Origin: Saksenaea vasiformis B4078
Lineage: Eukaryota; Mucoromycota; Mucoromycetes; Mucorales; Saksenaeaceae
DNA length: 64,000 nucleotides
Direction of reading: 5' to 3'
Assembly: GCA_000697055.1 (NCBI GenBank)
Contig: JNDT01002335.1
Coordinates: forward strand, 1-64,000
Made by a program: the position numbers and the translations under genes. This document shows positions 1-60,615 of this stretch, one piece after another. The notes beneath the pieces are model-generated. The model saw only the letters and a program-made list of their open reading frames with translations. It did not search any database and was not told the origin of the DNA. Within the stretch, counting starts at the first letter, position 1. Every line of letters begins with the position of its first letter.

Positions 1-109
1 TGATGTGAACGCGGGAAGAAACATGAGAAGAATTCTAGTTGCCTACATGGAAAATGGACATCAGCTAGAGTCAAGACCCCTCTCATTACAACGACCGCAG
101 CAGCAACAA

Positions 110-376
110 CAACCGCCCCATATCGGGGCTAGGCAGTAAGGAACTGCCAACAAGCCTCTCGTTAGGCACCTGGTGTGCTGTCTTCGGGCAGGTAAGAATT
201 GCTGTCACGTTAAAAAGAAACTTACGTCTTACTTCTCCGTGACTTAAGTGCACTGGAGAAACCCTCATAACATGCCACTCCCGAAGCTCATTGAGGGTAG
301 GTTAGCAGCTAATTTAGAGTCTTGGAGCGGCGACCTAACCGGTCGCCATCCTATATAATAACAAGCCTTCGGGCTC
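110..376 (+). other. Stem-loop-rich segment, candidate structured RNA
   Basis: No protein gene is convincing here. The plus strand holds a close series of perfect or near-perfect stem-loops. They are a 5-bp G/C stem at 115-129, a 6-bp stem at 132-148 (GGCAGT/ACTGCC), a 4-bp stem at 154-167, and a 5-bp stem at 178-191 closed by a cTTCGg tetraloop. A 7-bp stem lies at 329-347 (GGCGACC/GGTCGCC) and a second cTTCGg hairpin at 364-375. AATAAA follows near 376. The two UUCG loops favour plus-strand RNA. It could be a non-coding RNA, the 3' end of a retroelement, or the far end of the Fanzor element on the opposite strand. Confidence 0.35.
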
Positions 377-567
377 AATAAAACAGAGACAATCATTCAC
401 GTCCAAAAGAAAAGTCTTCAGTGTTAAGGTTAAAAGGCGAGGGAGATTGCCCAAATTAAAGTCTACACCACACAGCGTTTATTAGATAATCCAGTCAATT
501 AACCCAAATAACAAGTCCCGTAAATCACATGTTCCTCATCATCTGTGGCATTTGGATGTGGTCTCAT

Positions 568-653
568 GGCGCGGTTTAAATAATTTTTGCGCCGTTCGGG
601 AATTAAAAATTCCGCGTCGACGCAAAGAACATTTTCAAACGTGTGAAAACACG
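568..653 (-). other. Hairpin cluster just downstream of the Fanzor stop
   Basis: Four inverted repeats follow within about 100 bp of the Fanzor stop codon (665-667 on the minus strand). They are a CGTGT/ACACG stem with a 4-nt loop (640-653), the 10-nt palindrome GCGTCGACGC (614-623), a 6-bp GGAATT/AATTCC stem (599-613), and a GGCGC/GCGCC stem (568-593). TnpB and Fanzor guide (omega) RNAs are encoded from the 3' end of the nuclease ORF into the element end, so this is the expected place for such an RNA. That assignment is inference; only the inverted repeats are seen. Confidence 0.4.
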
Positions 654-2374
654 AGTCCCGTGAGTCATACTTGAATTACTGTCTGTGCTTGACTTACCAC
701 CATCGTAATCCCGTGGTAACGGGGACCTGTGTCGCACCAACGTTGTTGTTTTAGTTGGAGTCGTATAAACCCTGACGTACCTGTTACCGGTGGATCACGG
801 TGGAAAGGAAAAGGTTGGCCAGTGTGAAAGTGACTGGTTTGATCAAAGCATGGTAGAGTACGCCCTGTAAGCAGTCTAGCTGCTGCAGCGACTGCAATGC
901 ACTCAGCAGCTTGAACATCACGATTCTGTGTATTTCGTTCTGCTCTATACGAAGGGCACTCGGGATTCATACAGAGGGAAGAACCGTTGTTGGATACTGT
1001 TTTCCAGCCCCCGTTCACCATTTTACGCTGCTTCGGATGTACGATCAGGTTGAAACACGTGCTACAAGTTTGAGAAGTCATGTACTCATTGGTCATTGCC
1101 ACAGGAAGATATCGTCGATGCCGCTTGCGGAACTGTTCGCCACCCCGTCTTACATGCCCTTTGACTCGCGAACCTACGGTTGTGCCTGCGCTGCCAATGC
1201 ACATGATTACTGTATTTGGTGCCTTCGTATCTGCTCTTGCCCGATCAGATACAAATCTGCGCTCTTGCGATGTGAAACGGTCTTGAACTGTTTTGTTGAA
1301 TAACTCACGAGTTATGCTCTCCTTGCAATTTCGCTTGTTGTGATAGAAGTCCCGCAGAGTTGATCGGACTTTCAGTGCTTCTACATACCGTTGGAAGACA
1401 TCTGTCATTGTAACAGCCGTGTCCATGCTGTTCGATGCCAGAATTTTTTCGGCTTCTTGTATTTGCGGTGTTCTGCTTTTCTCCTTGAAAGTTTCTTAGC
1501 GTGTTTTCGATGGAGTGTCTTCTGATTGATCTCGGCTGTGATACGAAAACATCTGATAGGTGGCGGTTCCGGAGAACGTTCAGAGAGGGATCGATCTCCC
1601 TCTATGGAGACATCATCGGTCATGTCCACCTCCATAGGGTCATCCACCTCCATTGAATCGTCATTGTGCGTCTCTGCGAGCAGTGAAAAGCGGTTATACT
1701 GTTGGATCTTGTTGTCGTATTGAGCTTTTGTCAAGCGGATCGTCGTGGCCATTGTCACAAGCCCATAGTCGGTGCCACCGAAGATGATCTCGCGACCAAT
1801 CCTCGTTGATGCTGCCACCAGTTCCGAAACATCAAGTTTCTCACACGCCTCTTCACAACCAGGAACTTCAATCGTGGGTGGCGGACAAAGGAGTGTCTTG
1901 CTTTCCGTTTCCTTCGTGGATGTTTCGCCCTTTTTTTTTTTGAGTCAGCATGATCAAGTGTATGCTCCAGATATAGATCCATGACTTACACGTATCAATT
2001 TCCACCTATTCCCTCGTGCAGCTTTTAGTTGAAGCTTGGCTCTGAGAACCTTGGTCTGGCAGGTTGCACGGACCATCTTCAGTTCCTTCAATACCCAATA
2101 GAGAACTTGGCTTTCCGATGCAAACTGGTGGGGTTGGACGGGAGTGGATGCACCAGTAGTAGCTACGTCTCTCATGTTTTTCAGGAACCGTTTTTGTTTT
2201 TTTACATCACCGTCTGCCTTGCGGAGCCTTGCGGCCTTGTTCTTTAAATCCTTGCTGAGATCCTTGATAATAGAGTCCACTGTGCTCAATGTGTCCCTCA
2301 TCTCAGAGGTAATCTCGTCTCTGGTCTTCGTGTTTCTTGCGGTCGACTTGTGCTTCTCGTCTCGCATTATAGTA

Positions 2375-3716
2375 CACTCCTAGAAAGAAAGTCTGTCTAC
2401 ACTTGAGTAAACTCCGCCTACCCCATATCTTATGCTTTATCTTTCTCCACCACTTTTGCTTTGTAACATTATACACGAGGCCCATATTATGGCAGAAATA
2501 AGATATATCATATATTATAAATGTGTATGAAGCTTTTGGGGAAGATCTAGTAGCTCGTGTAGCCACCATTCGCTTCAATAACTTCTCTGCATCTTTTCCC
2601 CATTGATGCGACTAGATTCTGGCAAACACTCTGCGGCATCGCGTGCCATTCTTCCAACACAGCCTCCTCCAACTGCTTTGGATTTCTAATCAAATGCCTT
2701 CTCGGTGCCAAACGGCGCTCAACTTCGTTCCAAAGATGTTTGATCGGATTCAAATCGGGGCTCTGTGCTGGCCATTTTACCATCACAGACACTCCGTTTT
2801 CTTCCTTCCATTGCCTCGCTTCCTTTCCTGTATGGCTTGAAGCGCCATCCTCTTGAAAAAGGAGATCTTGCGTGTTGTTATCGTCTAAGAATGGAAGCAG
2901 GTATCTTTCCAGGACATTAGTGTACGCGGCCTGGTTCATTCTCCCTGGAACCAGTGATAGGGCCAACTCCAGCAGCAGTAAAGCAGGTCCAAACCATCAC
3001 TGAACCACCGCCATACTTGGTTGTACCTGTTATATGTTCTTTAAGAAGTGCTTCTCCACGCTTCCGCAGCACTCGTTTCCGGCCATCGTTGCCTGAGACA
3101 CGGAATCGGGATTCATCTGACCAAATGACACTTCCCCATTGTTGATCAGTCCAATTGAGGTGTTCCTTGGCCCATGCAAGTCTTTTCTCTTTGTGTTTTT
3201 CTGTTAGACTAGGTTTACGCCTTGGTCTACACGAAGAAAAACCAAGATCATGGACGGCATGACGAAATGTCGGTAGCGAGACATTTACACAAGTTGCGGA
3301 GAATTTGTAGTGATGATCAACCAAAGGGGCAAAACGATCGTGACGGATCGAGCGTTCAATGAGACGTAATGATCGTTCTCTAAGCTTTCTCAGTCTTCCC
3401 GTTCTAGGTTTCGACGCGGTAGTTCCAGTTTCATTGAATCTTTTTACTATTTTTTTTTGGACCGTAGATCGATCCAGTCCCCTGGACTTAGCGATTGTGC
3501 CATACGACATTCCAGCCTCCCTCATGCCCACGATGATCGCACGCTCTTCCACTGAAATTTCAGTATCTGGTTTGCGAGTGTTGTTAGAGATATCCTGAAG
3601 AGGCATAGTAGCTAGTTTACGAGAGAAGTGAGAAAAGTCGAGTGATATTCCTATCCTACGCGTTTTACACTTCGCGGAGTTTATTCAAGTGTAGACAGAC
3701 TTTCTTTCTAGGAGTG
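2375..3716 (-). mobile_element. Tc1/mariner element nested in the Fanzor gene
   Basis: This is a 1,342-bp element with about 43-bp terminal inverted repeats starting CACTCCTAGAAAG at both ends, flanked by duplicated TA (2373-2374 and 3717-3718). Its TIR shares the AAGTCTGT core with the intact element at 47781-49120. It carries one transposase-derived region on the minus strand. Removing it rejoins the two halves of the Fanzor coding region in one frame for 20-odd codons before another frame break, so it is a later insertion into that gene. Confidence 0.92.
2547..3606 (-). pseudogene. Tc1-family transposase, frameshifted and missing the catalytic Glu
   Basis: Two overlapping frames (2917-3606 and 2547-2966) together cover a Tc1 transposase. 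The first has an N-terminal paired HTH region (MPLQDISNNTRKP start, GMSYGTIAKSRGL) and the first catalytic Asp in VIWSDESRF. The second has the second Asp in LFQEDGASSH and the C-terminal PDLNPIKHLW. A single-base frame break lies near 2950. The third acidic residue, Glu in the family signature NPIEH, is Lys here, so the enzyme would be dead even without the frameshift. The intact relative at 47891-48949 keeps the Glu. Confidence 0.85.
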
Positions 3717-5977
3717 TATGAGGTGGACGGATTCACAGTTTCTTTGAGGACCCCCTGCATGTGGACAGCTCCATTTGGCAAGTACATGATCCTGTGGTCA
3801 AACTCCAACTTGTACGAAGAGCAGATGTTGTGAATCTCCTGAATGTCGAAGAAAGATGCAAATGTGTCTTCCTTGTTATGAGTAGCCCAGTCAGCCGATG
3901 TGATTGGAAGGTTATGTCTGTCCCTAATGATATAACCATCTTCCCGTGCAGAAGATGCCACGATTTCAAACAGAGTGCGAGCATCCAGAGGCAGCGCATG
4001 GATTGATGCCGGGCTTACAATGGGACAAATCTCTCGCGTATAGGCACTGTATCCAGCTACGCGTTGGACGATGGTTGAGATCATCACCAGAGGCATATGC
4101 AGCATAATGCATCGTGGCGCATCCTTATCTGGTATGAAATGCTGTAGTAACTTGCTGATGTTCGTGACAGCGCCCATCTCTTTGGCAGTCAGTTCCTCAC
4201 TGCCTTTCCATGCTGAACGAACCTTTTCCTCGAAGGTATTGTCGACCTTTGTGTTGGACAGAAGAAGTTTTTTGGTCAGCGTCTTTAGTGCATTGATTTT
4301 TCGGCTGGAACTTTCCGATTCACCCGGTTCTTGCTTCTCGCCTTCGCTTTCATTTTCTTCTTCTACCTCCATCTCAAGCAGGGCCTCAACTACACACTCT
4401 TCATTCATGCCACTTTTCAGCATCTGTTCAGCGGTATTATCTTGCGATTCATCAGCATTGTTCTTCTGGATATCATCTCCCTCAGCTTGCTGAGTTCCTG
4501 CATCGGTGTCCAGCGGCGGACCTTTTTTGTGTTCCTGATACATGGCAGCCCGTCTTTGAAAAGAAAGCTCTGCTCGTCGTTGCCACTCATTCCTTTTGTT
4601 CTGAGGTGCGGTAGCGTCTGTGGCTTTACTCAAGCATTTGTTCATGTATCGAGTTTCACGTCGTAACAGCTGATGCGTAGCACTTCTTTTCTTCGTCGTT
4701 GGGGCCTTTCGTTCTTTGGCTTCTTTGGCTTTCCTTGCAACCAGTTCTTTATACTTGCTTTCTCGGTTTGGTGCCAAATGGACTCTCAGATAGATAAGTA
4801 CGAGGCGATTGAGACAGCGTCCAAAGATATTTCCACTCCAGATGTTGCGCAGATTTGTCGAGAATGCGACAAGTTGCTATTGGAGTGTGTAACTGTAACC
4901 CGCAGGAAGTGGTGTGGTTTGATTTCCCGGGACCGCAAGTTCTTCTCATGTCTTGTTCTCTTTCGGCGTGTTAGACGAGAGATGCTTCGTATGCATGTAC
5001 TCTACATGCGGGAACTCGAACATCTTTGTGATATCGTGACCTGAGAGTTTCTCCATGTTCGCGCTTGGGAGGGGCGCTACTGGGATAATGCCATCTTCGC
5101 GGATATACTCCTTCTGTCTCTGTGCGCCAGATGGCAAGAAATCTCCAATACGAGGTAGCCAGCCAACGGAGTTGCCTTTCTTGATATCCACAGTACCATC
5201 TTCGGCGATGTTAATACAGAACCCTCGCTCCGCTGTACCGATCATCACCGCTCGGGTGACAGCTGCAAGTGTGGCTGCATAATCCGTTGCCACCATTGCT
5301 GTATTGTCGAGTCTTCGAGTGAAATCTCGCACATCAGGCTCGTTGGGAAGTGTTCGCAAGATTCGGGTCAGCTTCGATGGACAGGTCCTTGTTTTCTCAA
5401 TAGCCACCTTAGATCCCATCTTCTTTCGCCGCTCATGCTCTTCCTGATAGCGGGGATAGGCACTGTAGCCCTGCTGCTTGTACGCGTAAAATTCGTGTTG
5501 GACGAAGGCTTTCCAGTCAGCAAGCACTGTGTGGGCTGAACCAAGGCTCTTTCTGACAGTGCCTGGTTCATGTCTCCCAATATCATCAGCCCTGGAAAAG
5601 AGACCTCTTAGAACGCGTGTGACATCCACATTCTGGCTATATATGTCTTGCCAGGCATCTTCCGTAAGTTTCTTTTCTTGGCTGGCGAGTCCGCGGAGGG
5701 CACTTTCAACGTTGGCAGACAAGTGAAGCGGGAAGGCTATACGGACAACCTCTTGACATGTAGCTCGACTCAGTTTGGAGACGCTTCGTTTCGGTGCTGC
5801 CTGTCCAGAGGCACACCGCTCAGGATACGGGGTCTCGACAAAGGTAGTAGAGGAGTTAGGATCCCAGCTGACGCGGAGGAAGCTTGAACAGCTTTTTTTC
5901 GTCTTTTCGATTTTGCCTTCTACGATATGAATTAGGGCTATGTATAATTAGCGCCTATCGCAGGTACTTACCTCCAT

Positions 5978-7641
5978 GTTTTATATATTCACTATTTCTC
6001 TTTCAGATAAAGGAAAGGATAAAGTTATGCGAGGTAAGACAAACAAGTGAGAGTGACTTCTGCTTTTTTTTTTTGGACGACAACTGTAGAAGCAGTCGTA
6101 TTCTATTCGATAATGAGACCATTAGTTCACTGTTTGTCAAAGCTCCACCTCATTTTACCCACTGTTTCTATGATGGTACGTCTTCCTGGCACAAAAGACA
6201 AAAGACAGTGTATACAATGAGTTTGGCAAATTATCTACAGTCTGTCAGTTGTATTCGATGAAGAGTTATATACTTAACTTACGGTAAGTGATTTTGTCTT
6301 CTCAGAAGCAAGTTAATAAAGAACAGTGATAGCAAAATGGGGTCCTATGGTCCTGATTTTACAGACTATTAGTACAGTCTCCAGTCAACACAATTGTATA
6401 GTTAACATACCGGTATGTAAGAGCTTTCTTTTGATCGCAAATTAGATGTCGTGAAAAATCGAAAGAAATGTGGTAATGAACGAACGGATGAAGAAAGGTG
6501 GTAGTGAAAGAAAGGAGAAAGAAACCTCCTTCAACAGCTACAGACAATGAATCGGTGGAACTGAGAGCGGATAATGAAATAAATGCAGTGGAGAAGTCCA
6601 TTAGCTCATGATCAATATTCTTTGTATTTTTCAAGAATGATGAGGCGTTTATGAGTTGCATAACGCATGGGTTCGGTAACCACGATCCATAGTTAGTTTA
6701 TTCACTATACCATATTCATCGTTTGTTGAATTTCAACAATCGGTTCTGTTCTAAGCTTTGTTAACGTACTATCAGAGATAATTGAGGTCCATGATAATGT
6801 TCACAGCCTATTTGGTTGTCGACTCATGCCTCCCGCAACAGATCGAGTGATATGTGAAAAAGTACGCTCCTACTTGTTCTATCAGGGATGCTAGATATAA
6901 ATCCGGCGTATACGGATGGATCTATGCCTTAATACTTATAGTAAGTATCATGAAGTATCTCAGGCATTAGTTTCTGACAAGAAAGTGCACTACAATGGAC
7001 CACCTGCGGTATATAAAAAGTCGATCATTGGTCTACTTGCTGTAGATAGAAAGGAACATAGCTCTCAACCCCGGTTACAATACATTGTCATCATGATAGT
7101 CAACTATCCTACACCAGTCGTCAACGACAGCACAGCGCTACAACCGCGCTGACCCGAGAAATCTTAAGCAGAAAGCCCGCAAGAAGAAACGAAGTCGCCC
7201 CCGCCCCAAAGGAATTCGACTACAACTGTTGAAGCCTTAGATAGATCCCTAGATGCCTACATAACAAACCAAAAACAAATAAACTGCTTTGTAAAAGAAT
7301 ACCAACAACAATGACATCTGCACTGCGTCGGCGCGCTTATGTTCTTTTGGCCAAACTTAAGAAAGGAACTATGATATTCTAGGAGTATAGTAGGGAAAAG
7401 TCGTGACATGATTCTCGTCTGCGAGAAAGATAACAATGACAAAGGCCATGGAGAGTTTTGACGGAATTGCAAATGAACTGGAGGAAGCGCATTGATCATA
7501 GAGGAGAAACCGGTCTGACGTTTTGTTGGTTTGTTCCTAAAATGGTTATAGAAGTATGTTATCGGGAGTGTAAAAGTGAAAAAAGGGAATTTACTACAGT
7601 TTATAGGATTTCCAGGGGTGATCCGTGTCTCTGTGATTATC
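5978..7641. other. Stretch without a recognisable gene
   Basis: No convincing gene was found. A short lysine/arginine-rich frame ends at a stop near 7239 on the plus strand (KARKKKRSRPRPKG) and could be the tail of an eroded coding region. The rest is AT-rich with small unrelated open frames. The right end is probably the downstream flank of the decayed transposase that starts at 7642. Confidence 0.3.
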
Positions 7642-9011
7642 CTATAGCCCTTTTGCTTCATTTTTACAGCGCAAAAAGAACGATACAGCATGTCGAATCC
7701 ATGCCTGGCAGTCTAATAGGGTCACTCTGTTCACTGACTCACGGATTCGATCCGTAAGTCGATCGTCCACTTTCAGCACATTTCGCCTAATACCTGCTTT
7801 TAACTTTGACCAAAATTCCTCAATAGGATTAAGAAAGGGGGAATATGGTGGTAAGTACAGACAGTTATAGCCTCTACTCTCAATCAGATTGCGGACGACT
7901 GCAGGTGTGTAAATTAGGGCATTATCCACTACGATGTAATGGCCTTTCATATTATTTCTATCCAACACATCTATTACATTTGATATATAGGACAGAAAAT
8001 GTCCTGTTCGTGTACCAATCCGACCATTAACTGTCTTCGTTTGTTTTCCGTTAAATTTTCTCTTTTTGGACATAGATACAGCCTGAGGCTTTCTCAAAGA
8101 TACATCTACTACTCCAGCCTCAGAAATGGCGCCTAATACAGTAACCTTGACTCCCTTTCCGGTTGGTATAGTGCCTTTCGCTGCAGTTCCGTTCGCAGAG
8201 CGGCCAAAATTTCTTTGAGTATGCAGGTTAAAATCTGCATCATCGATAAAGAGGCAGTTCTCAGTGAAGTCCAAGACTTGCATCGTTTCTCATTGAGCAA
8301 CTTTATATTTTCGCAAAGTTATCACCCCATCATAATTCCTCGCTGCAGGAACCTCTTTCAAGTTTTCGAACATTAGATGACATTTATTGACTAAGTCTTC
8401 AGACGTCTCATATCAGATCCTTTGTATATCAGTCAGGATAGGACGGGATTTCTGTCGATGTAATCTGCAAAAAACTGGGAGTGAGCTTCAGTCAGCTTCC
8501 CATAACATCTAGTACGAGGCTTTCTCTGAACACCAGGTATACACTGTTCTTCATCCCAGTTGTATGTTTCGATATAATGGCTGAGCCGTTCGGACATCTA
8601 TACCTATGATAAGCGTTGCTTTCTTTGCTGTTCATCCTTCTTCAATCACCAGATCAAACATCTTTTTGATTTGCTGCGGGTGTATTTTCTATAGGAAGCT
8701 CTCGTTCTAGCTTTATGCTTACGCTACACACATAGTCTGTCTGGAAAGTGGATAAAGCCTGTTAAGATTTCATCTCTGTTATCATCAGCAAATATTGAGG
8801 CTTTTGTCAATGTATGCATTCGCATAAGGTTGATGTCTACATGACTACCTCCTTCCCGCCATCTTTCAGTTAAAACGAATGGATTTGAACGAGACAGTTC
8901 TGTCTACTCATTTTGTATATCATCCGCAGACATATCAACGTCGAATGAGGCGACATCATTTACATTCGATGGAGCGCCATCAACCTCTATGTGTTCGCGT
9001 AAAGCGTTCAT
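7642..9011 (-). pseudogene. IS630/Tc1-type DDE transposase, N-terminal half decayed
   Basis: The open part (7642-8283) is the DDE catalytic domain. It has the first Asp in CLFIDDADFNLHTQRN, the second in HYIVVDNALIYT and the Glu in FLNPIEEFW, with DD34E spacing. Upstream on the same strand the helix-turn-helix region can still be read (QQIKKMFDLVIEEG, then GIDVRTAQ) but is interrupted by several stop codons. An ATG-led stretch begins near 9011 (MNALREHIEVDG). This is a degraded copy of a transposase family that recurs in Mucoromycota. I could not define terminal repeats. Confidence 0.75.
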
Positions 9012-9133
9012 ATCGAAGAAGTAAAAGATGAGTTTGCTACCACCCTTTTCTTTGCAAATGGCGGAGTTCATGCAACGCAAAATTCATTAGCAGCCGGCGC
9101 AAAGTCACACGCAAAATACTGTATGTCCAAAGT

Positions 9134-10039
9134 CCCTCCGGTTTTTCACGTCTCTTAGCAAGCCGCCTGTACGCCCAATTCATCCGACCCAAATTAGAAT
9201 ATGGTCTAGCGATCAGCTCATTCACCAAAACGCAACTCCAGGAAATAGAACGTGCCCAAAACACATGCCTACGCATGATCTATGGTGCCCGCGCCAACTC
9301 TGAGACCAAGGTGATGCGCCATCTCGCAAAGCTACCTAGCATGCGCGAGAGGACTGCCATCCTACAGGCAAAATTCCTGCGCCGAGCCCACTACCTTCCG
9401 GAAGACGCACTACTCACACACCTCCGACCCCTACTCCTCTCCCCATCCACCTCCCACTGGAACAAACTCTGCCGCACACCAGTTTGGCAAATTGTTCCGA
9501 CACCAGAAACTGCCTCTATCAAGGTTTTCCGAGAGACTACCCGCAAATACCTGCGTGATACACACAAGACCATGATATCAGGCCCAATTGGCGCCAAGAC
9601 CCTGACTGCCTGTCGACAAACACTCTGCGTGGATCCCATCTTGTGGCTCCCCATGACGCGACGAGATCGCAGCCGCTGCATACGATGGCGACTGGCATGG
9701 CTCCCTGGTGGCAAGAAAAAACCCTGTGCCTCTTGCGGCCATGAGAACTTCAACAAACAGCACGCCACTGTCTGCCTCCGTATGCATGCTCGCTTAGGTA
9801 TCGCGCGTCGAAAGACAGATGATCCACTATCCTTCGCCCTCAACCTGCTTCCCCAATCACTATCGCAATCACCCCGCCGCCGTCAGCAGCTTCACACACT
9901 CTGGCCGGGGGTCTGTACCATTCTCGCTGAACTGGATGCACACCAACACCCAGGGTCAGATCCTCGACAATACTACGATCCAGATCCGGGACAGGCCCTC
10001 CTACAGTGGCTCGATTCTCCTCCTCTTGAACCAGGCTAG
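9134..10039 (+). pseudogene. C-terminal fragment of LINE reverse-transcriptase polyprotein
   Basis: The frame reads LYAQFIRPKLEYGLAI and IERAQNTCLRMIYG, the thumb/connection region that follows the catalytic palm of LINE reverse transcriptases. A cysteine-containing tail follows (CASCGHENFNKQHATVC, a likely CCHC-like knuckle). The endonuclease and palm domains are absent because of the 5' truncation, so it cannot act alone. The frame stays open to its natural stop at 10037-10039, which suggests a fairly recent insertion. Confidence 0.75.
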
Positions 10040-17332: not shown

Positions 17333-20300
17333 CTACTCAAATTTTGCCTTCTTTGTTGAATCATTATCCTACAGAATTCCCATATGTCAGCTCCCCGAGA
17401 CAACTACTCGTTGCGCGCGCTGACTTACCTCAACAATGCCTTCAGCATCACGTTTGTTGCTGTTCATGCTGGATTTGATAGCTTCCGTCGTTTTCAACCC
17501 TTTTGCTGCACAGAGCTTGTTAAATTCAGCCTCAATTTCTTCACCCATCTTGTAAACAATATCATCTGCCAAATTGAACGTATAACAATTGACAAACACC
17601 TGGTTGGCATCCCGCAGTAGCTGCTCTGGTTCCGTATACTTGGATCCCTCGAGTTTCTTGCGAATCGTTCCAAAATCCATGGGTTTCTAAATGAGAAAAG
17701 AAGTGAGCACACCTGCAACTAGCGAACTTTGGGAGCACAGTTTACCTTGATAATATCAAAATACGTCGGGATTTGAAGCAGCACCGTATCCACTGGTGCA
17801 CCGAACGGATAGTACGAAGGGTGTATTTGAAGTTTATCCAGGACAGCTTTATATTTCCGCAACTCAATCTTGGCAGGATTGGGAGACGATGATTTTGAAG
17901 AGGACTTGGGTGATACCTTCACCGATTTAGTTCCATTTGAAGCGTGAGATGGTGAAGGAGATGCAAGTTTCAACTGCTCCTCTTTCGCGCGGATATTAGG
18001 TATCTCTTTGTTAAAGATCCCTTCGAGTATTTTTGCATTGCGAGAAATAGGATGTTCGAAACCATTAAATGTGTAGCAATTTGTGAAAACAAGCCGCACA
18101 TCGTTCTCAACGTCTTTAACCGCCTTGTACTCACCAGCCTTGAGATTTTTGGAACTAGACGCTCCCGTTTTAGCTCTATTCTCTATAAAAATAGAGGGGC
18201 GTGGTGATTACTTACATGGTACCAAGATCCATAGGATTTTTGATAATAAGCGGGTAATGAGGAATGTTAAGGGCCACAGGATCCACCTAAGGATAACTTT
18301 GTGAGCAACATGAACACTTCGCTGTCCAGACGACTTACTGGTTCCAGAAATCCGAGAGACGCTTTGTGATCCATCAACTTGTGGACCAACGACTCAAGTT
18401 TCACCTTTACGGCTGGAGGAAGTCTTTGTGGTATGTCTACGTCCATGGAAGACGACGTATCCTCGACTACAGGAGTTTTCTTTTCTTTCGGTTTCTTTGA
18501 GCTTTCTGGCCGGGCAGTAACCGGGTTCGGTGCCTTTGCTGACACATGATTCGTGGCTGCAACTTTGGCCGATCCTGTCGACGTAGCAGATCCAGGAGAC
18601 TGCTTCGATCGAACAGGAGCAGCTGCTGCAGCCGCCTTGGCTTTGTTGCGCAATTCTTTGCCCACATTTTGATAGTACTTCTCCAGTTTCTTGCCCTGCT
18701 CGTAAGCATAGGTAACGGAACTGTTGTAGGTGAAGCAATTGGAAAATGTGAGGCGGATATCGGCGTCCACCTGGTGCAGACTGGTGTATTTTCCTGACTC
18801 GATTTTTTCACTGATCGTTCGCAGATCCATCGGTGATTTGACGACTTGTCGGTAGTCAGGGAATATATCGCAATCAACAGGTTCATTAAACAGCGGCGCA
18901 GCCTCATGGGCCATCAGTTTCCCGATAATTTTTTGAGCCAGACGTTTGTCTTCTCCCTTCAGAGCATTAGGATCTCCAAACTCAGCAGACCATATCTGGT
19001 TGGTAAACGCTTCCAGTGCTTGGCCTTGCTGTGCAACCCATGATGACGAATCGTTGAAACGGTAACAGTTCCAGAAGATTTGTCGGATATCCTTTTCAAA
19101 CTCCCAAATTGTGGAGTACCGATTCTCCTTCAGATTGCGGCGGACAGCTGACAGATCCATTGGTTTCTATAGTACCCATGACCATCAATGTCTCTGACAG
19201 TTACTGCTTTTGGAAAACATACCTTTATGATCTCGTAGTACTGTGGTATGTTGAGCGCAGCAGCATCCACCTACGTAACAAAAGCGGTTAGTTTTACTGT
19301 TCAGACCACAAATTACCACATGCATACCGGCTCATAAAATGGTTGTGATGCTTGATGTTGCCAAATTTTCCCTAGGATGCGTTCACATTGTTTCTTGTTA
19401 TTATCATCCATTTGAGGATTAATGGCTGCAGGCTTGGATACATGGACAGACGTGGAAGGTGAAGCTTTTGCAGAACTGGTGTGACTATCGTGCGAAGATT
19501 TCGATGATGATGATGATGGTGATGCTTGCGCATTTTCGCTTGAAACGAGCTTCGTCCTCGGGGGTGCAGCCGGTGCAGTCTTTGTGTGCTTAGCGGCCTG
19601 TGGCTGCGGTTCAGGTGCAGGGCTCTCCTGAGGTGCATCCACAGACGTTCTACGCAGGTGAGCAAAGTAGACGTCCCATTCATTGTTGTACAGTTCTTCT
19701 AGTTTTTTCGCTTCGTTGTAAATGTAGAAATTAGGCGGATTGAACGTGTAGCAGTTCTTGAACATCAGTCGCACGTCGTCATCGAATTGTTGCGGATTGG
19801 AGTATTTGTTGTTCCTCAGCTTGGCTTTGATCGTACCCAAATCCATAGGATTCCTGATGATATTCCGATAATGTGGAATACCCTGCTTGATAGGATCAAC
19901 AGGACGCAAGAATTCAAATGCATGCGGACTTTCCATGGTCTTGGCCAAAATGGCCGCAAGTTTATCTTTTTCACTCTTCTCCCGCTCAGGTTTAGGCTCC
20001 TGCTGGGTCCTAGGAGGCGTGGAAGTGGACGATGCGGCCTGCGGCTGTGGAACAGGCGCCTTTGGTATATGCGCCTTTGGAGCGTGTGTCTTCGGTGCAT
20101 GTGCCTTTGGTGCGTGCGCCTTGGGTGTAGGAGGCGTCGGTTTTGGAGTGACAGTAGAAGGCTCACCGACCGGCCGCACCTGTTTAGCAGGACTCTCCAC
20201 AATCGTCATGTTCTGACTTTCTTCGCGCTCCTTGCCTTTAAGCAGTGCTAGTTCCTTTTCGAATACAAGTTCCAAAGTCTGTCCTTCATTGTAAACGTAG

Positions 20301-23300
20301 GTTCCTGGTCCATTGTAGGCAAAGCAATTGCTCAATGTCAACCGTATATCATCTTCGAAACCTTGGAACGATTCATACTGTCTGGCTTCGAGTTTTCGCT
20401 AGAATCTCTCGTAAGTACAAAGAATTCAAAGTCTAGAAAAGGAACTCACTTTCACTGTACCAAGATCCATCGGTTTCCTGGATTTTGTTTTGTTAAATAT
20501 GATTTCAATGCTGGTAAGTAAATATGTATCACTTACTTGATGATCCTGAAGTAGTCTGGAGCGCCATCGAGAACTTCGTCGACAGGTTCCAAAAAAGAAA
20601 CGGCAGAACGATGTTTTAAAAGCTTGTTGAGGATACGACGAGCTTTCTTTGTATCTTCCATTGAAATCATTTTGCCTTGCTTTTCCGCTGGTTTTGGCGA
20701 ACTGACTTCTGAAGCTTTGTCGACAGACGCGATACGGATCTTCGGTTGGGCAGGCGGTGGGCGAGAAGGTGCTGCCTCGACTGGCGCGGATGGCACTGGT
20801 GGGGAAGGTTGTTTCGCTGGTGTTGTTTGTGCTGGTGCTGGTGTCGGTACGGGGGTTGGTGCTGGAGTAGGTTTTGTGGGTGCAGGTTGTGATGCTGGAG
20901 CGGGTGCAGACGCAGGTGTGGAGACGGGAAGAACTGGTTCGGCAGGTGACTCTGTTTTGATATGCACTGTCGGTGTAGATGTCTTCTTTTCGACTTTTGG
21001 CGGTGCTTCTAATTTTATAGATAACAACTTTGTAAATGCTTCTTGTTTGTTTGTGATTCAGTTACTTACTTTCTTTTTCTTCTTCATTACGAGGAGCTGT
21101 CTGCTTAGGTTTACTAATTCGTAAGATAGGAGGCTGAGTAGGTGTTTGCGGTTGAGGCTCTTCTGGTGCTTCAGGTGTCTAACGCCATAGGTAAATTTCA
21201 TCTGCATCACTCTTTCAACGAACGCTTACCGGTAATGAGGACACCCGGATAGTGACCTTGAGACCCACGTCGATAGGTTTATACATGTATTCACAAAATT
21301 GTAATAGATATTTACGGATGCAATGATCCAGTGTAGCGCGTTCGGGCAGACTGCGAAAGAGAAGTTAGCATATAAACTGGCTGCAATCTTTTTTTTTCTA
21401 CGTACTTTAGAAGGTCCCATAGATTTTGTTGCAGTTCGCTGTTGTTTTCGAACCGTTTCCGCAAATGCTCAACACTTGCTTGGAATTCTTGATGGGGTGT
21501 CTTCCCAAACGGTTGTCGTTCATCATCAATAACCACCTTCCCTTCTTCTTCTGCGAATTCTTCCACAAATCGATTTTGTGCAAAGTCTGCCTTTTCCTTC
21601 ATAGCCAATCCCAGCCATGCCAAAGTGGCCCGTGCGACATAATGGGATACATACACGCTAGGATCATGCTCGATGACGTCCAGAAAATAACTAGTTAATG
21701 CGTTGTCCGTCAAGCCACATAAGACAAAGAGACTGTCAAACGCCGTGAGGCGTATGTCTACGAAGTTGCCATATCTAGAGCGTGTCAGCAATTTTCCCCC
21801 TGATTTGCTAGTGTACCTTGTGTACTGCATAAATAATGCCAAATCGACGTCCATGAGACTATTAAGCATCAACTTTGTAGTTGTCTAATCATACGTGTTA
21901 TTTCTCCAGTTTTTCCATTACTTTGTCCCTACCTTCAAACAAGCTTCCGTAACAACATTGTGATAGGATGGTATAACGTAGTCAAGCGTGCGGAAACGTT
22001 CAATCTCTGATTTAGCAGCAATAAGTAACTCTTCGCCTTCCAAATCTTCGAATCGCAATGCATCCGGCGCATCTGCGGCTGGAATTAAGGCGTCACCCAG
22101 TGCTGAAATCAGAGTCGCAACGTAATAACAATCGGAAAACTAGTAGGATAATAAGAACGCCCGTTATCGCCGTTGCTAGCGATGCTTACCTCGTTGCCGA
22201 TATTATCATTGTACTTCAGTAAATCCAAAAGGAACTGCCGTATTTTGATCGGTGTCAATCCACGTTGATCCCTGACCTGAGAAAACGCGATCACTACAGC
22301 TTTTTGGATGAAATAGTCGGGAAGCGTCGAGAAATTGTTCGGTTTTGGAATGCCAATATGAATCGGGACTTCATCGTCTAAATCCATCTGCGAGGAACTG
22401 ATAGGGAAACAGTATCGTTTTTGGAACATCTTATTCAACTGATGTAATCCGACGTACTCCATCGTTGGCACTGCACAGGTTGATAATGCGTATGCAGCTT
22501 CCATGCGTATTTTGTAGAAACATTTGGGATCCATCAACGCGCGCAATAAACTAGTTGATGTAGGAGGTGAAGGCATCTGCCTTAATGCGCCAATGGCCTC
22601 GTGCTGTGCCACAACATCTCTATCCTTTGTAAGCTGCGCAGCCCACATGTAATCCGGTTGTTTGAATTCAATCGTGGTCAACCACTCGAATTCAGCATCA
22701 AGACGAATCCAATCAAACATGGCGCTGGCTGCACCACTTGTATCTTCCTCATCTTGACCCCATTCGATGATTTTCCATTCTTGTCGCTGCGGTGGATCTT
22801 CAAACATTGGCATACCCAATCCCAAGCTTGGGATAATACCAAGCACATTGGTTGTCCCACCTTCGCCTTCTTCGTTATCGTGTTCTTCCTCAGCAACTGC
22901 TGCTGCTGCCGCGGCTTGCTTGGCTAAGAACCGTTTTGTGTTCCGACGAATACGTTTGTACTTGGTATTGAATTGTACTTCATATTTGTGATTTGCTGAC
23001 TGGATATCTAAAATGTGTTCGTATGGTGTTCCATCTGCTTCATGAATTCTGACGGTCAAATTTCCAGTAAAGAGCGGCGTCGTCAATTCTTGGAAGTTGA
23101 TCGCGCTTCCATCAGCCATCATACTGGTCGCACCTTCACCCGTACCAATGACCTTGTTTGTGTTCTCCTGATGCATGTATATTTCGACCACCATTTTCTT
23201 ACGATTGAAATGGAACCAGAATCCAAACTTCGGACAACCACTCTTGTACACCCATTGTTCCGCAAACGTTTTGGTATCGAAACCGCTTACTTTACGACAC

Positions 23301-25625
23301 AGCTTCATAAAATAGTGCGTACTGATGGCGTTCTGTACAAGTTCGCCACTCATTGCAGACACAAGAATCTTGGGCAAGACACGCGAAAGTCCCAATGTCG
23401 CACCTCCCTTGCACATACGTTTGTCCAGCATGTATAATACAAGCGGCGCCTTCAAGTCCAAAAATTCCAGATCTTCAGGATCCAGAGGAGACGGCAGTGC
23501 AGGATTATACAAAGGCGGACGGTTGATATCAAGTGAACAGCACAATTCCATATCCTACGAACGTGTCACTATTGCTGATACATGTTATGATTGTAAAATT
23601 TACCCTCTTCAGACGTAACCGATATTCATTGTTACCGAGATGTCGCTTGATAAACAAGGATGCCATTAAGTTGGCCAATCCGCACACCAACCATGTATCT
23701 GGCCATGACTTTTGAATAATGTGTATACCGAACCATTGTTTAGCTAGAGCTAAACTCAGTGTCCGCCGGGTGTGATAAGTTTGATCAATGATCTCTGGTG
23801 GATGAAGAAGGGCAGAGCTACAGCACATCAAATTGCAATCAGCGTTGCATCCAGCACACTTTTCTCTAATTTACCTGCAAATAGCTAATGAAGCACTAGC
23901 GGTCGCATCGTTCCATGCATCCTCAACAAACACAATCTTGAAATCCGAAAAAGGGTAGGATCCATACTCTTGTGCGTAAAAATGCATGGCCTTTCAGAAA
24001 GAGGTTGAGAACGAGCAACGTAAACAACAGCAAGCAACTACTTACGTGCATCAGAAAGCTACAACTAACACTCAAATCTTCGTCTCTTCCCGGTAACGCG
24101 AACGCATAAATATTGGACATCATATTAATCTCTGCCATTAAACTCTGTTGTTGATTTTCGTCCAAATCAGTCGCATTCAGCACTTCCTCTTGTAACTGCG
24201 ACGGTGATAATTTGATCATTTCGAAAGGTCCAACGGCGAATGCGATAAATGGCGCTGCAGTAGGTACTGATAAGCTGTAATGCACAATCTTTCTCGAAAT
24301 ATCGGTTGGGTGGATTATCTGCATCGTCGACGTCCATAAGCTACATCTGGTACATCTTCTCTTACCTGTTCCATCACTTCACCACTGCACACTACTACTG
24401 TCGCATCTTCTTCATCCAGTGGTCCCTCCGCATCGTAATCAGTTGGTAATGCATTCATTTTCCGCGGTACAATAAACTCCATATCCCATGTACAACGTTC
24501 GGAAATTCTGTCAATGCATGGTAACCACAAACGCGTTGCGCCCGGCAATGGTTGGTTTACTGTATATAGATGGTTGGAACGCTAGGGGTAATTGGTACAT
24601 ATTAGAAAGATAATGGGACATTCCTTTAGTCTTACATAAGGTGCCACATCTTCATCTTTTTCAACGAAAACCACGCCATACCGTGGATTTTCCAAAACGT
24701 AATCGATCTGGATTGTGAGAGGAGCGTAAGATGGAGGTGGTGGCATAGCAGGTACAGGCGGCGTTTTCTCGGACATCGTAACATCATCTTGCAAATCTAA
24801 AAATATCAAACAGTAAGCGTTATTTTTTTGTCGCACTTCGTCGGCACCGCCATACCCGCATTACTATGCAAAAACACATCGTTGCTGATCATTTGTGCCT
24901 CTGACTCTGACATCTTCCCGCGAAAAATAACGCATAAGATAATCCATCTCCAGCGTTCCTATGAAATACCTGTTTTATGCTGTCCTCTGGTATTTTAATT
25001 AAAAGTTCTCCATTGTCCCCTTCTCGTAATGCATTGAGGTATCTGCTTTTGTAGACTTGATGATGTGATATGGTGGTATTCGTGCCCAACGACAATTCTG
25101 ATACGGGATCTGTATGAACATGCTCTACTGGTGTATCATTGACATATGTCCGCAGTACATCTAATAGAATCGACATGCATTAACGCCCAAGATCATGATT
25201 ACAAAAAACGAAACATACTGCATTGTCGACAATTGATTCGAATGTTCGTGAGTTTGTTGTGTAGTGGTTGAACGGTCAGTTCCGCTGATCCCTGATGCGC
25301 GTAAATAAAATAACGAAGTTTTCAGCGAAATGATCAAGATTTGAACACGTTCGGGATTCGTTTACCTGAATGAATCGTTTATTTGGATCAACTTCCAGTA
25401 CAAAACGTTCATGACTCGTATAATTTGAAAATTAAGGTTAGGAGAAAGCTATATCGCTATCTTGTAGTAGAATACTTATAATGTAAACCCCTTCTTGTAT
25501 GCGTCTCGCTGCATTACAGTGGAGAGAACGTGAGTCTGTGAAGCAGTGCGGGCGATTTGAGGGTGATAGGCCTTTGAAATTTTGCGATGACGTTCGCGCA
25601 AATTCATCGGCGGTGTTTCAATCAT
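17333..25625 (-). CDS. TAF2: TFIID subunit TAF2 fused to six C-terminal bromodomains
   Basis: This is a long minus-strand gene with many short introns. The N-terminal two thirds is the TAF2 M1-aminopeptidase-like fold. It has HERFVLEVDPNKRFI and LTNIRINCRQC near the start, RLWLPCIDRISERCTWDMEF, then EDAWNDATASASLAIC and LALAKQWFGIHI. The HEXXH zinc site of true peptidases is absent, as known for TAF2. A HEAT-like region follows (22.1-23.5 kb). Downstream, six bromodomain units can be read at about 20.6-20.3, 20.0-19.6, 19.4-18.9, 18.9-18.6, 18.4-18.0 and 17.9-17.5 kb. Each has a PMD(L/F) ZA-loop motif where sequence allows and an NCxxxN asparagine motif. Linkers are Pro/Ala/Lys-rich. The last intron (17369-17428) leads to a short exon ending KKAKFE at 17333. 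TAF2 binds core-promoter initiator DNA within TFIID; the bromodomains would add acetyl-histone reading. The exact first exon (ATG 25625 or 25607) is uncertain. Confidence 0.88.
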
Positions 25626-28011: not shown

Positions 28012-29538
28012 ATGCAGAAACTAATGACTGCAGCTAGAGCCCGTTACTCCTTACTTCTAAAATGCGCGTTTACCGCCACAGTAATACTCCTCATGTTGTG
28101 GTTCCTCATTCCAAACGTTCCTTATCAATCCCTTGATCAAAGTAACAGTAAACAGGATAGGATATGTGACCATAGGTGTTAAAAGCATGACTATAATAGA
28201 TATCTTGCCCATGTCTGACCATTGCTCCACTGCCCATGCCGGTCGGCCACTGATTCAGTATGCAGTAATGATCGACGCTGGTTCCTCTGGATCACGCGTA
28301 CATGTCTATCGTTTCAATTATTGTAAAGCAGAGCCTGAATTGGAAGACGAGGTGTTCCAAATGATCGAACCAGGCCTGTCTTCGTACAAAGATCCGACGG
28401 TGGCAGCCGAGTCACTGGATGAATTGATGCATACGGCCATCCGTAGTGTCCCAGAATACCTTCATTACTGTACACCTGTGGCGATCAAGGCCACAGCAGG
28501 ATTGCGTCTGCTGGGTAAAACTCAGAGTGATCTCATCCTCCAAGAAGTGCGCTCGCGATTGGAAACTCTGTTTCCTTTTCCTGTTATTGACGTCGAGCTC
28601 ATGGATGGCAAAGAAGAAGGTAATTAATTAAGTAATTAATTAAGGCTGTTGCTGAGAATAAGGAAAAAAAAAATAACACAATGAAAAAAAAAGGCGTGTT
28701 TGCATGGATTACGGTCAATTACCTGTTGGGAAAACTCAGACAAGGTGCGCAAGGCCAATCAGCAGCGATTTTTGATCTAGGGGGTGCATCTACCCAGATT
28801 GTCTTTGAGCCCACTACCATGAAGAACAGCAACATCAGTGAATATGAAATGCAATTGCACTACGGTGGCTCTGAATACAAACTGTACCAACATTCCTATC
28901 TCGGGTATGGTTTGAACGAAGCTCGCCGGCGGATCAAGGCTCAGATCATGGATCAATTGCAGCCGTCAAAGAATATGGGACCCGTCTATCATCCTTGTCT
29001 ACCCGAAAACCATACCGAAACAATGCAATGGAAAAATGGCAACAGAACACAGGCGATCAAACTTATTGGCTCCGGTGCTGGCCATGCGGAATGCCGCGCA
29101 GTCGTCGAACGCGTGTTCAATAAGGAGAAACCGTGCCCAGAAAATCCATGCGCATTTGATGGCATATACCAACCATCTCTCGAGGATACCTTTAAAAATC
29201 GCGACTTGTATGCCTTTTCTTTCTTTTACGATCTCTCACAACCATTGGGTCTGCCTATGGAATTCTCTGTAGCCGAACTGGGTGGTTTGGCAAAAGACGT
29301 ATGTGCTGGCGAGACGCGATCTCTTCGTCATGTCCCTGGAGCATTACAAGCACTACAAAAGCAGCCTAGTTACTGTCTCGACCTGACGTATGCCTATGCG
29401 TTACTAAGGGTTGGGTATGAATTACCACCGGAGCGGCTGGTACGTACTGCGAAGAAGATTCGTGATGCCGAAACAGGATGGTGTTTAGGTGCGTCGATAA
29501 AGATGCTGGATAATGTACCATTATGTCGCGCAAAATAG
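28012..29538 (+). CDS. GDA1: Golgi guanosine diphosphatase (GDA1/CD39 apyrase family)
   Basis: Three exons (28012-28141, 28200-28619, 28694-29538) encode about 464 residues. A type II membrane anchor lies at residues about 15-35 (LLLKCAFTATVILLMLWFL). Apyrase conserved regions follow: ACR1 VMIDAGSSGSRVHVYRF, an ACR2-like AIKATAGLRLL, ACR3 DGKEEGVFAWITVNYLLG and ACR4 IFDLGGASTQIVFEP. The enzyme hydrolyses GDP to GMP in the Golgi lumen so that GMP can exchange for GDP-mannose, supporting mannosylation. An in-frame ATG at 27865 would add a hydrophobic 49-residue leader, but its T-rich composition looks like 5' UTR. Both introns keep phase. Confidence 0.9.
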
Positions 29539-47780: not shown

Positions 47781-49120
47781 CACTCTAAAGTAGCAAGTCT
47801 GTGGACGGTAGTGCAAACTCCGCTACTTTCAGTTCATACTTCAAAATCTTTTACAGGTGTTTTCCTTCTTTTTCTTATAAATTTATTTCTATGCCATTTG
47901 GAGATATTTCCAATACTACTCGAAAGCATAACTGTGAATTTTCTGAGGCGGAGCGCACGATGATTTTCGGAATGAAGGCAGCAGGAATGTCATATGGTGC
48001 TATCGCCAAGGCCAAAGGACTTGGAAAATCGAGTGTGCATCGTATTGTAAAGCACGTTAGTGAGTATGGCTCTCCGACTTCTAAACCAAGAGAAGGAAGA
48101 CCCAAGAAGATTACGAAACGATCATGTCGAGCCATTGAACGCAGCATCCGTGACAATCCGCGTACACCCCTGAAGGTTCATCACGCGACTTTCTCCGAAA
48201 CATGCATGAAGGTTTCATTGAGCACATTCGCCAAAACTGTGCACGAACTTGGGTTCTCTTCACGCCGCCCTATTCGTAGACCTAGGTTAACAGAAAACCA
48301 CGGAACCAGACGGCTAAAGTGTGCAGAGGAACGCGTGAACTGGACTCCTGAGCGATGGCAGAAGGTAATCTGGAGCGATGAGTCCAGATTACGTGTCATT
48401 GGTAACGATGGTCGGGTACGTGTCTTGCGGAAGGATGGCGAAGGTCTTCTGGAACAGCACATCACCGAAACTACAAAGTTCGGCAGTGGCTCGGTAATGG
48501 TATGGGGCTGCTTCAATGCAGATGGGGTTGGCCTCATTCAAGTGGTAGATGGCAGGATGGATGGGAAGGAGTACATCAAGGTTTTGCAGAGAAACTTGAT
48601 ACCATTTTTGAAGGAGAACAAGTTAGATGACCATATCTTTCAGGAAGACAATGCCCCATGTCATAAGAGCAAGGCCGTGCAGCGATGGAAGAGCAAACAT
48701 GGTGTCTCCTTCATGCAAGACTGGCCTGCACAAAGTCCAGATCTCAATCCTATTGAGCATCTCTGGGACGAGCTGGAGCGTCGTCTGGTAAAGAGGAGAC
48801 ACCTGATTCACAAGCCAGAACAGTTGGAGGCAGCACTCATGGAAGAGTGGCATGCCGTCCCTGCAAGCATCTGTGAAAGCCTGGTTGCTTCCATGCCAAA
48901 AAGGTGTCAAGCCGTGATTGAGGCGCGTGGGGGGCACACACCTTACTAAATTCATACGACAATGGAAATAAATATGCTTCATATCTAACTTGTTCTACGT
49001 CTAGCATCTTTAAGTGCATTAAGTAGCATTTATCAAGTGCATATGAAGTATACAGTGTTGTCAGGAAATCAGATTAGCGGAGATTAGTGCTACCGTCCAC
49101 AGACTTGCTACTTTGGAGTG
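47781..49120 (+). mobile_element. Apparently intact Tc1/mariner element
   Basis: This is a 1,340-bp element flanked by TA (47779-47780 and 49121-49122). The terminal inverted repeats begin CACTC(T/C)AAAGTAGC and match for about 30 bp with two differences. It carries a single uninterrupted transposase gene on the plus strand. It lies between the G6PD and SWC4 genes and disrupts neither. Confidence 0.93.
47891..48949 (+). CDS. Tc1-family transposase, full length
   Basis: A 352-residue uninterrupted frame. The N-terminal bipartite HTH includes GMKAAGMSYGAIAKAKGL and the GRPRR-like hook KPREGRPKK. The DDE catalytic triad is complete: Asp in VIWSDESRL, Asp in IFQEDNAPCH and Glu in PDLNPIEHLWDE, with 35 residues between the last two by my count. 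It binds the element ends, excises it and inserts at TA. The ATG at 47891 gives MPFGDISNTTRKH, matching the start of the dead copies at 3606 and 58457. An upstream in-frame ATG at 47801 lies just inside the TIR and is less likely. Confidence 0.93.
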   Translation: MPFGDISNTTRKHNCEFSEAERTMIFGMKAAGMSYGAIAKAKGLGKSSVHRIVKHVSEYGSPTSKPREGRPKKITKRSCRAIERSIRDNPRTPLKVHHATFSETCMKVSLSTFAKTVHELGFSSRRPIRRPRLTENHGTRRLKCAEERVNWTPERWQKVIWSDESRLRVIGNDGRVRVLRKDGEGLLEQHITETTKFGSGSVMVWGCFNADGVGLIQVVDGRMDGKEYIKVLQRNLIPFLKENKLDDHIFQEDNAPCHKSKAVQRWKSKHGVSFMQDWPAQSPDLNPIEHLWDELERRLVKRRHLIHKPEQLEAALMEEWHAVPASICESLVASMPKRCQAVIEARGGHTPY

Positions 49121-59890: not shown

Positions 59891-60615
59891 ATTATAGACT
59901 GTTAAATACTATAAAAACCCCTTTTGATTGTATCAGCTACGAGCCCATCAACCATACAGTGAGTTAAGAAATTGACTACATACAAATTTAGTACAGTGTA
60001 TTTTGTGCAGGTGCTATGACGCTCATGACCCTCTAGTTTCAACGCCCATCAATTTCATTCCCATTTTTCCAACGATTCTCATGCTAGAAAACGCTCCTCC
60101 CAGATATTTCCTATCAGTCCTTTCGCCATTCGTTTCATTTCCGCCACGTATTTTCAAAGTTGGAGACGGAATCGACAAATGGGAGTTGGAGAGGGATAAA
60201 CCGTGTAAACAATGCAGACCATTATACAGTAAGATGCATGCATGACATGGCTGTATCTATAGCAAACCGGGCGCAATTTTGCATTTAACGTCAAACTAAT
60301 TATTTCTTCTAAAAATCGCTAGACTTGAATAGTATAGACAAGAGAGCAGGCGACATAAAATAAAGCGTCATCGAAGTCTGACAGCATTTCAACTTGTCTA
60401 CGTTGTATTCCCTTGGGATACCTCAATCGGGGCAAGGCCCAGGAAATGGGATATGATGATCGGAGGACCCCCCCCCCCCTGCGAATTTAGGCTTCGTGTC
60501 AGGCAGCGGATCCTTCATTCGGCCAGAAAACACAAAAAAAAAAACAAAGTGCATCACACTATTATAAATAAGCATCAAGGAAGCGAGCATAGCACCTTCA
60601 TCCAGCCAACTCATC
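59891..60615. other. Intergenic region upstream of RTA1-like paralogue 2
   Basis: No convincing gene. It contains a C10 run near 60470. The terminal part is the presumed promoter and leader of the second RTA1-like gene. Confidence 0.4.

Follow-up and report, generated by a model that had tools for sequence, protein, structure and literature searches.

The window analysed here is a stretch of 64,000 nucleotides from Saksenaea vasiformis B4078 (contig JNDT01002335.1, assembly GCA_000697055.1). Near its start lies what is very probably a dead transposon of the Tc1/mariner type that carried, behind its own transposase, the gene of a Fanzor1-like RNA-guided DNA nuclease of about 1,250 residues. 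The whole element is read on the minus strand, its coding strand, from a 5' end at position 9121 to a 3' end that is truncated near 577. A first-pass annotation of this DNA had described a broken Fanzor-type nuclease on the minus strand, and its motifs, zinc ribbon and frame breaks have all been found where it had placed them. The gene lies at 665-5947, and the feature continues to 9121 with a transposase that had been missed.

The decayed Fanzor/TnpB-type gene (665-5947, minus strand) is spread over five open stretches on that strand, all parts of a single gene: 5947-4946, 4876-3665, 2379-1954, 1944-1405 and 1495-665. The N-terminal part of the protein is a 333-residue open frame (4946-5947) and the middle part one of 403 residues (3665-4876). 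They are followed by a 141-residue frame 5' of an intron (1954-2379), its end running into the intron, by the RuvC-I part (1405-1944) and by the part that holds RuvC-II, the zinc ribbon and RuvC-III (665-1495). RuvC-I reads IIFGGTDYGLV, with the aspartate codon at 1770-1768. The RuvC-II glutamate codon (1087-1085) lies within NEYMTSQTCSTC, six residues before the zinc ribbon CSTC...CMNPEC, and RuvC-III reads NRDVQAAEC, with the aspartate codon at 919-917.

The catalytic layout that results, ExxxxxxCxxC together with RD, has been given as the Fanzor arrangement, in which the canonical glutamate is replaced by an alternative one, placed six residues ahead of the zinc finger (PMC10711439). The window has this alternative glutamate, E(alt), in NE-YMTSQT-CSTC; the conserved stretch upstream, which was equated with the canonical site by eye, reads IMCIGSAG and holds no glutamate. 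The superfamily motif D-X(125,275)-[TS][TS]XX-C4 zinc finger-X(5,50)-RD (PMC3627910) is found in the close relative L025 on contig C102, with about 230 residues from the D to an SS pair, QT-CSTC...CMNPGC, 11 residues and RD, and its motifs are also in the window, though in separate frames. The first-pass annotation had made its reading depend on a DED site in the relatives, where the D, E and D catalytic residues are indeed conserved. The reading of the locus as a broken Fanzor/TnpB-type nuclease gene is supported.

Searches with profiles and models have also been made. A PDB search with a profile of twelve own-genome copies placed PpFz1 of Parasitella, a member of the Mucorales, first as the best match of the family (E 0.031) and SpuFz1 of Spizellomyces punctatus third (E 0.088). 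These two are the only TnpB/Cas12-type proteins among the four matches at E<=1, and they align in the correct register, so that the profile check proposed in the first-pass annotation came out, weakly, in its favour. An hhalign comparison with the D-P-G Fanzors of the same genome gave E 2.8e-5 and a probability of 74 over 93 columns, aligning E(alt), the zinc ribbon and RD; both input alignments are shallow, with three near-identical sequences on one side, and the single control, a transposase, gave E 0.4 and a probability of 0.15. The more distant copy L031 (C634) scores above the cut-off of the Pfam TNB model (28.4 vs 26.3 bits). In NCBIfam, it alone has a TnpB match, below threshold, and four other proteins gave nothing TnpB-like. 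Foldseek with the C-terminal model ranked two SpuFz1 chains first and second (E 0.0036 and 0.0078).

Several results weigh against this assignment. RuvC-I reads D-Y-G, whereas D-P-G at this position is near exclusive in Fanzors and part of their fingerprint (PMC10711439). The C-terminal piece of the window stays under the TNB cut-off (15 vs 26.3 bits), as do the other C-terminal pieces tested besides L031. The E-values of both PDB profile searches are weak, the second one, with twenty sequences, returning only SpuFz1 (E 4.2) and a Cas12f (E 9.9). The C-terminal AlphaFold model is poor (predicted local distance difference test, pLDDT, 61.5; predicted template modelling score 0.31), and its Foldseek alignments with SpuFz1 reach TM-scores of just 0.14-0.17, no match being at E<=0.001. 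The N-terminal model has a pLDDT of 48.8; Foldseek matched nothing to it at E<=0.001 and listed 50 rows without a Fanzor, so that WED and REC domains find no support in this model. VIA-align 2 aligned the C-terminal model chiefly over residues 40-142, through long-helix matches, with no Fanzor among the 50 rows listed, and a PDB sequence search with the window C-terminal piece gave only chance-level matches to Bcl-xL.

The D-Y-G motif is shared by the relatives of the window copy wherever it could be read. GTDYG occupies the corresponding position in 15 of the 20 loci from L025 to L044 and is present in the window, or 16 of 21 own-genome loci. The pattern used was [GAS]TDxG, which admits any residue between D and G and which a D-P-G in another context would escape; in the remaining five of the 21 loci it has no match at the homologous place, the residue there being unread. 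All six public proteins that reach this region, out of 16 listed, also have GTDYG, among them some from Umbelopsis and Mortierella. By comparison, all three other Fanzor loci opened in the same genome, which belong to one subfamily, have D-P-G. E(alt), the zinc ribbon and the RuvC-III aspartate fit the published Fanzor arrangement, and RuvC-I departs from it. Because RuvC-I lacks D-P-G, we will use the term “Fanzor1-like” and do not call the protein a fingerprint Fanzor. The D-P-G rule is not absolute, however, since the metal site of SpuFz1 uses D383 and N385 (PMC10432273).

The gene has decayed in several ways. It is interrupted by a nested Tc1-type transposon (2375-3716, no strand assigned) with TA at either side and 45-nucleotide inverted arms that are 98% complementary. 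Four relatives, L025-L028, lack this transposon and have a single TA at the site, which bears out the earlier claim of an interruption. The transposase of the nested element is itself split over two overlapping minus-strand frames, and the nested element is therefore broken too. In the Fanzor-type gene, the reading frame breaks at two further places, between 4946 and 4876 and near 1405-1495, in line with the frame breaks noticed in the first-pass annotation. All structural criteria available make the window copy look inactive, and it should perform none of the functions proposed below because its frame is broken, a second transposon lies inside it and the outer arm of its hairpin is gone.

One interruption is not damage. 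The 60-nucleotide stretch 1989-1930, which had been predicted to be a spliceosomal intron (GTAAGT...TGCTGAC...AG), keeps its donor, branch-like and acceptor signals in six of the six close copies examined (the window and L025-L029), varying in length and in its A-run. Purifying selection acted on the protein before the decay: the ratio of nonsynonymous to synonymous substitution rates against L025 is 0.21 for 4946-5947, 0.19 for 3665-4876, 0.27 for 1405-1944 and 0.18 for 665-1495, which covers four of the five window pieces and leaves out the short 1954-2379 piece. With values of 0.18-0.27, the lineage was maintained as a protein before the window copy died. The synonymous divergence from the same C102 copy is uneven, 0.29 at 3665-4876 and 0.69-0.86 in the three other pieces, and the copies therefore look mosaic, as after gene conversion.

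The relatives in the genome give the size of the protein. The C102 copy has one 875-codon frame running into the intron, followed by a 401-codon frame. The N-terminal half, which had been inferred in the first-pass annotation, is real and part of the same protein, since L025 carries the matching sequence as one frame, continuous across the first two window pieces. In L025 this half is uninterrupted up to the intron. The C634 copy likewise reaches the intron in one frame, of 850 codons, followed by 174 and 227 codons. Allowing for intron codons and uncertain starts, the protein would have been roughly 1,250 residues long. L028 (G000:C511) is rearranged, its N-terminal and C-terminal parts lying on opposite strands.

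The C-terminal piece has at least 140 matches in its own genome, which fall into at least 120 places when matches within 3 kb are merged; both counts are lower bounds, and some weak matches may be of related families. The next best copies are 93, 90, 85, 76 and 75% identical. Copy number and identity of this order put the Fanzor-type locus far beyond chance. The Pfam TNB model has 137 matches in the genome, 131 of them above the cut-off, and seven of the 137 overlap the C-terminal set; the two sets combined make 247 places, most of the TNB places being known only as matches.

The carrier element has been delimited by comparison of copies. Its 5' end is CAGTATTTTGCG at 9121, with TA at 9122-9123. 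At least 49 other genomic matches to 8300-9140 exist, and 22 of the 49 listed start at query positions 16-25 (window 9125-9116). At the other end, the sequence of five copies follows that of the window as far as 577/578, and four of them continue for 34-35 nucleotides to ...AGTA, so the 3' end of the window copy is truncated. L027 has AGTA directly after the 577/578 point and has therefore lost a short stretch. If the ends of L029 are set by eye, a TA can be read next to each of them. The window copy has TA at its 5' end and has lost its 3' end. The matches to the 5' end of the element (8300-9121), at least 49, far outnumber the six close Fanzor copies. The extra matches are possibly deleted relatives, by analogy with the ghost elements of SpuFz1.

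The transposase core on the minus strand (7642-8289, 215 residues) is of the Tc1/mariner/IS630 type and matches Pfam DDE_3 at E 7e-21, with a D-34-E spacing counted by eye; its upstream part (8433-9083) lies in separate frames. L047 holds an open relative of 466 residues (DDE_3, E 1e-25). A transposase match upstream on the same strand has been found in four of the six copies with a C-terminal match of at least 75% (C606, C110, C102 and C147); of the two exceptions, C186 begins within the element, at the end of its contig, and C511 has undergone rearrangement. In C634, the gene is adjoined by a related transposase that points the other way (59% identity across the part in common). The transposase is also present in C150, C208 and C492, together with portions of the spacer, and the Fanzor searches gave no match in C150 or C208 and none within about 24 kb in C492. 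Since C150 and C208 both end about 1.3 kb further on, the Fanzor gene there may have been lost. The DDE_3 transposase lies inside the shared boundaries of several copies. Judged by these features, the carrier is apparently a Tc1/mariner (IS630) element with a DDE_3-type transposase, and hence a eukaryotic DNA transposon other than IS607, as Fanzor1 requires.

The Fanzor-side end of the element can fold into a hairpin, whose remainder in the window (577-690, minus strand, outer 3' arm gone) is a candidate guide-RNA scaffold. Four copies have their 3' end complete, and their terminal 119 nucleotides fold far better than shuffled sequences (z -7.3, -6.4, -4.6 and -5.0); the truncated window 3' end has z -2.0, and two 5' ends have z +1.2 and +0.2. 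The core stem of 22 pairs has 90.8% of its cells paired, vs 40-55% when slid, and four of the 22 pairs are altered on both sides yet still paired. In a control of 500 shuffles, none came up to the observed percentage paired, covariation score or number of doubly changed cells. On the other side of the balance, the four pairs changed on both sides were equalled by 67 of the 500 shuffles and the pair types by 345, and four sequences are few. An Rfam search of window 1-10000 gave no match at E<=0.1.

The guide RNA of SpuFz1 has a scaffold of about 75 nucleotides, which lies beyond the stop codon at the right end of the element, and a guide of 14-15 nucleotides from the flanking DNA (PMC10432273). 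By analogy, the hairpin, apparently kept by compensatory changes, is a candidate guide RNA, and the comparison suggests RNA-guided DNA cutting by the intact relatives. An RNA from the 3' end of the element would carry a tail copied from the flanking host DNA; the tail would guide cutting of the matching site, and the cutting would help the element to persist or spread.

It is quite possible, if short of probable, that the family assignment is right and that the hairpin is a DNA signal, made of sub-terminal transposase sites in a fold-back arrangement, with a protein that is guided by RNA from elsewhere or is unguided. The arms of the hairpin hold TTTTGCG-type motifs that are also present at the 5' end of the element, and a role in DNA is therefore possible. 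A second subfamily of the same nuclease (L034-L043) bears on the question as well. Its nine 3' ends compared show no inverted repeats by eye; seven have precisely GTTCAGATAC as their end, and the other two differ from it by a single change. The terminal stem of these elements is not clearly better than shuffled sequence in the four tested (z -0.35, -0.78, -1.15 and -2.24), and one of its 17 pairs is doubly changed. A terminal stem in L034-L043 as a general hallmark of the guide RNA has accordingly been dropped as unsupported by the z-scores, and the weak stem speaks against a general rule. A guide RNA is favoured, however, by the position and size of the hairpin, which fit the SpuFz1 guide RNA (PMC10432273), and by its presence at the Fanzor-side end only, judged from two 5' ends, whereas transposase sites would be expected at both.

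The D-Y-G motif raises another explanation, that the GTDYG family goes back to TnpBs with D-phi-G and E(alt) which eukaryotes captured separately, forming a third eukaryotic branch that does not descend from D-P-G Fanzors. The spread of GTDYG over own-genome loci and public proteins agrees with this, as do the D-P-G Fanzors that coexist in the same genome, and an E(alt) clade with D-phi-G has been described apart from the D-P-G clade (PMC10711439). We consider such a capture unlikely: the best matches among solved structures are Fanzor1s, a mariner-type carrier in a fungus fits Fanzor1, P and Y are a few base changes apart, and the metal ligands of SpuFz1 already depart from D-P-G. A scan of bacterial and archaeal contigs with one peptide pattern, a weak negative, found no relative. 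The wider proposal is just as improbable, namely a TnpB-like branch of RNA-guided nucleases whose origin is distinct from those of Fanzor1 and Fanzor2, a giant form that has a right-end guide RNA of its own and has spread through Mucoromycota and Mortierellomycota. That the gene encodes an unrelated zinc-ribbon transposon protein, TnpB-like in three short motifs only, is extremely improbable. The weak C-terminal model and the weak or absent Pfam and NCBIfam matches of most members tested would agree with it, but it is contradicted by the three catalytic motifs, which all agree in order, spacing and identity, by the TNB match of L031, by the Foldseek ranks of SpuFz1 and by the profile match to D-P-G Fanzors, set against a clean transposase control.

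With the Fanzor1-like assignment preferred, the element can be compared with known systems. SpuFz1 is about half the size of the protein described here, and the TnpBs with D-phi-G and E(alt) are prokaryotic and smaller than it. They resemble it, when compared by description only, in their combination of RuvC-I and RuvC-II features (PMC10711439). SpuFz1 shares E(alt), the third D, the zinc ribbon, many copies and a right-end source of guide RNA; its locus differs in its length of about 2.1 kb and its RuvC-I ligands, and, being a single open reading frame, it has no transposase gene (PMC10432273). The same paper counts 42 SpuFz1 loci and 134 relatives without the gene, and reports other elements inserted in some Fz loci.

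Bao and Jurka (2013, PMC3627910) described Fanzor1 in TA-flanked Tc/mariner elements such as PGv-1 and PUl-1. These elements likewise combine a Fanzor-type protein with a mariner-type transposase, are flanked by TA and have D-X-[TS][TS]XX-zinc finger-RD; the host here is a mucoromycete, and the protein is about twice the usual size and has D-Y-G at RuvC-I. The majority of Fanzor1s have 600-700 residues (PMC11423790). The Fanzor1 families ROr, PBl and MCi, from Mucorales and so from the host group of the window, were described in 2013 (PMC3627910), with carriers that are MuDR-like or unclassified, some having Crypton or Harbinger transposase parts, unlike the carrier here. Given these families and a cryo-electron microscopy structure of Parasitella PpFz1 (PMC11423790), the lineage is not undescribed, which corrects the statement in the first-pass annotation that few of its loci are described in structural detail. 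Since Fanzor1 is already known in mariner elements and in Mucorales (PMC3627910), the locus is not a new kind. The window copy is a fossil of a known kind, and its family is a variant with D-Y-G, about 1,250 residues and a candidate 3' hairpin.

Relatives have also been sought outside the genome. Three protein searches returned 4, 20 and 4 proteins, one of the last four being the query P0004 itself; two of the three scored only those candidates with most words in common, and length was restricted in each of them. The named matches come from Apophysomyces and Umbelopsis (Mucoromycota) and from Mortierella, Modicella and Dissophora (Mortierellomycota), the best being 71% identical. Viral contigs, scanned with one peptide pattern, gave no relative, a weak negative. 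The open-licence literature gave no paper on Fanzor with Apophysomyces or Mortierella, nor on TnpB with Mucoromycota; it gave two on Fanzor with Mucor and one with Parasitella. Filters built on the D-P-G fingerprint would miss this large fungal D-Y-G family with a Fanzor-type glutamate, which bears on the origin of Fanzors. A single genome holds many diverged copies of the family, along with related transposases seemingly without the nuclease gene, and such copies allow the study of guide-RNA candidates and of nuclease capture by a mariner-type element.

Other features have been noted in the window. Positions 1-256 are a high-copy repeat, with at least 22 further places at 81-99% identity and at least 13 partial ones at 69-73%. 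A 335-residue open frame on the plus strand (9032-10039) has no Pfam match at E<=0.001; it resembles the end of a reverse transcriptase of the long interspersed nuclear element type. A 386-residue Tc1-type transposase frame (Pfam DDE_3 and HTH_Tnp_Tc3_2) is open at 47789-48949 on the plus strand. Ordinary host genes have been recognized by Pfam at 18267-23554, 28636-29538 and 60568-61620, namely those of a bromodomain protein, a TAF2-like protein, a GDA1/CD39 phosphatase and an RTA1-like protein.

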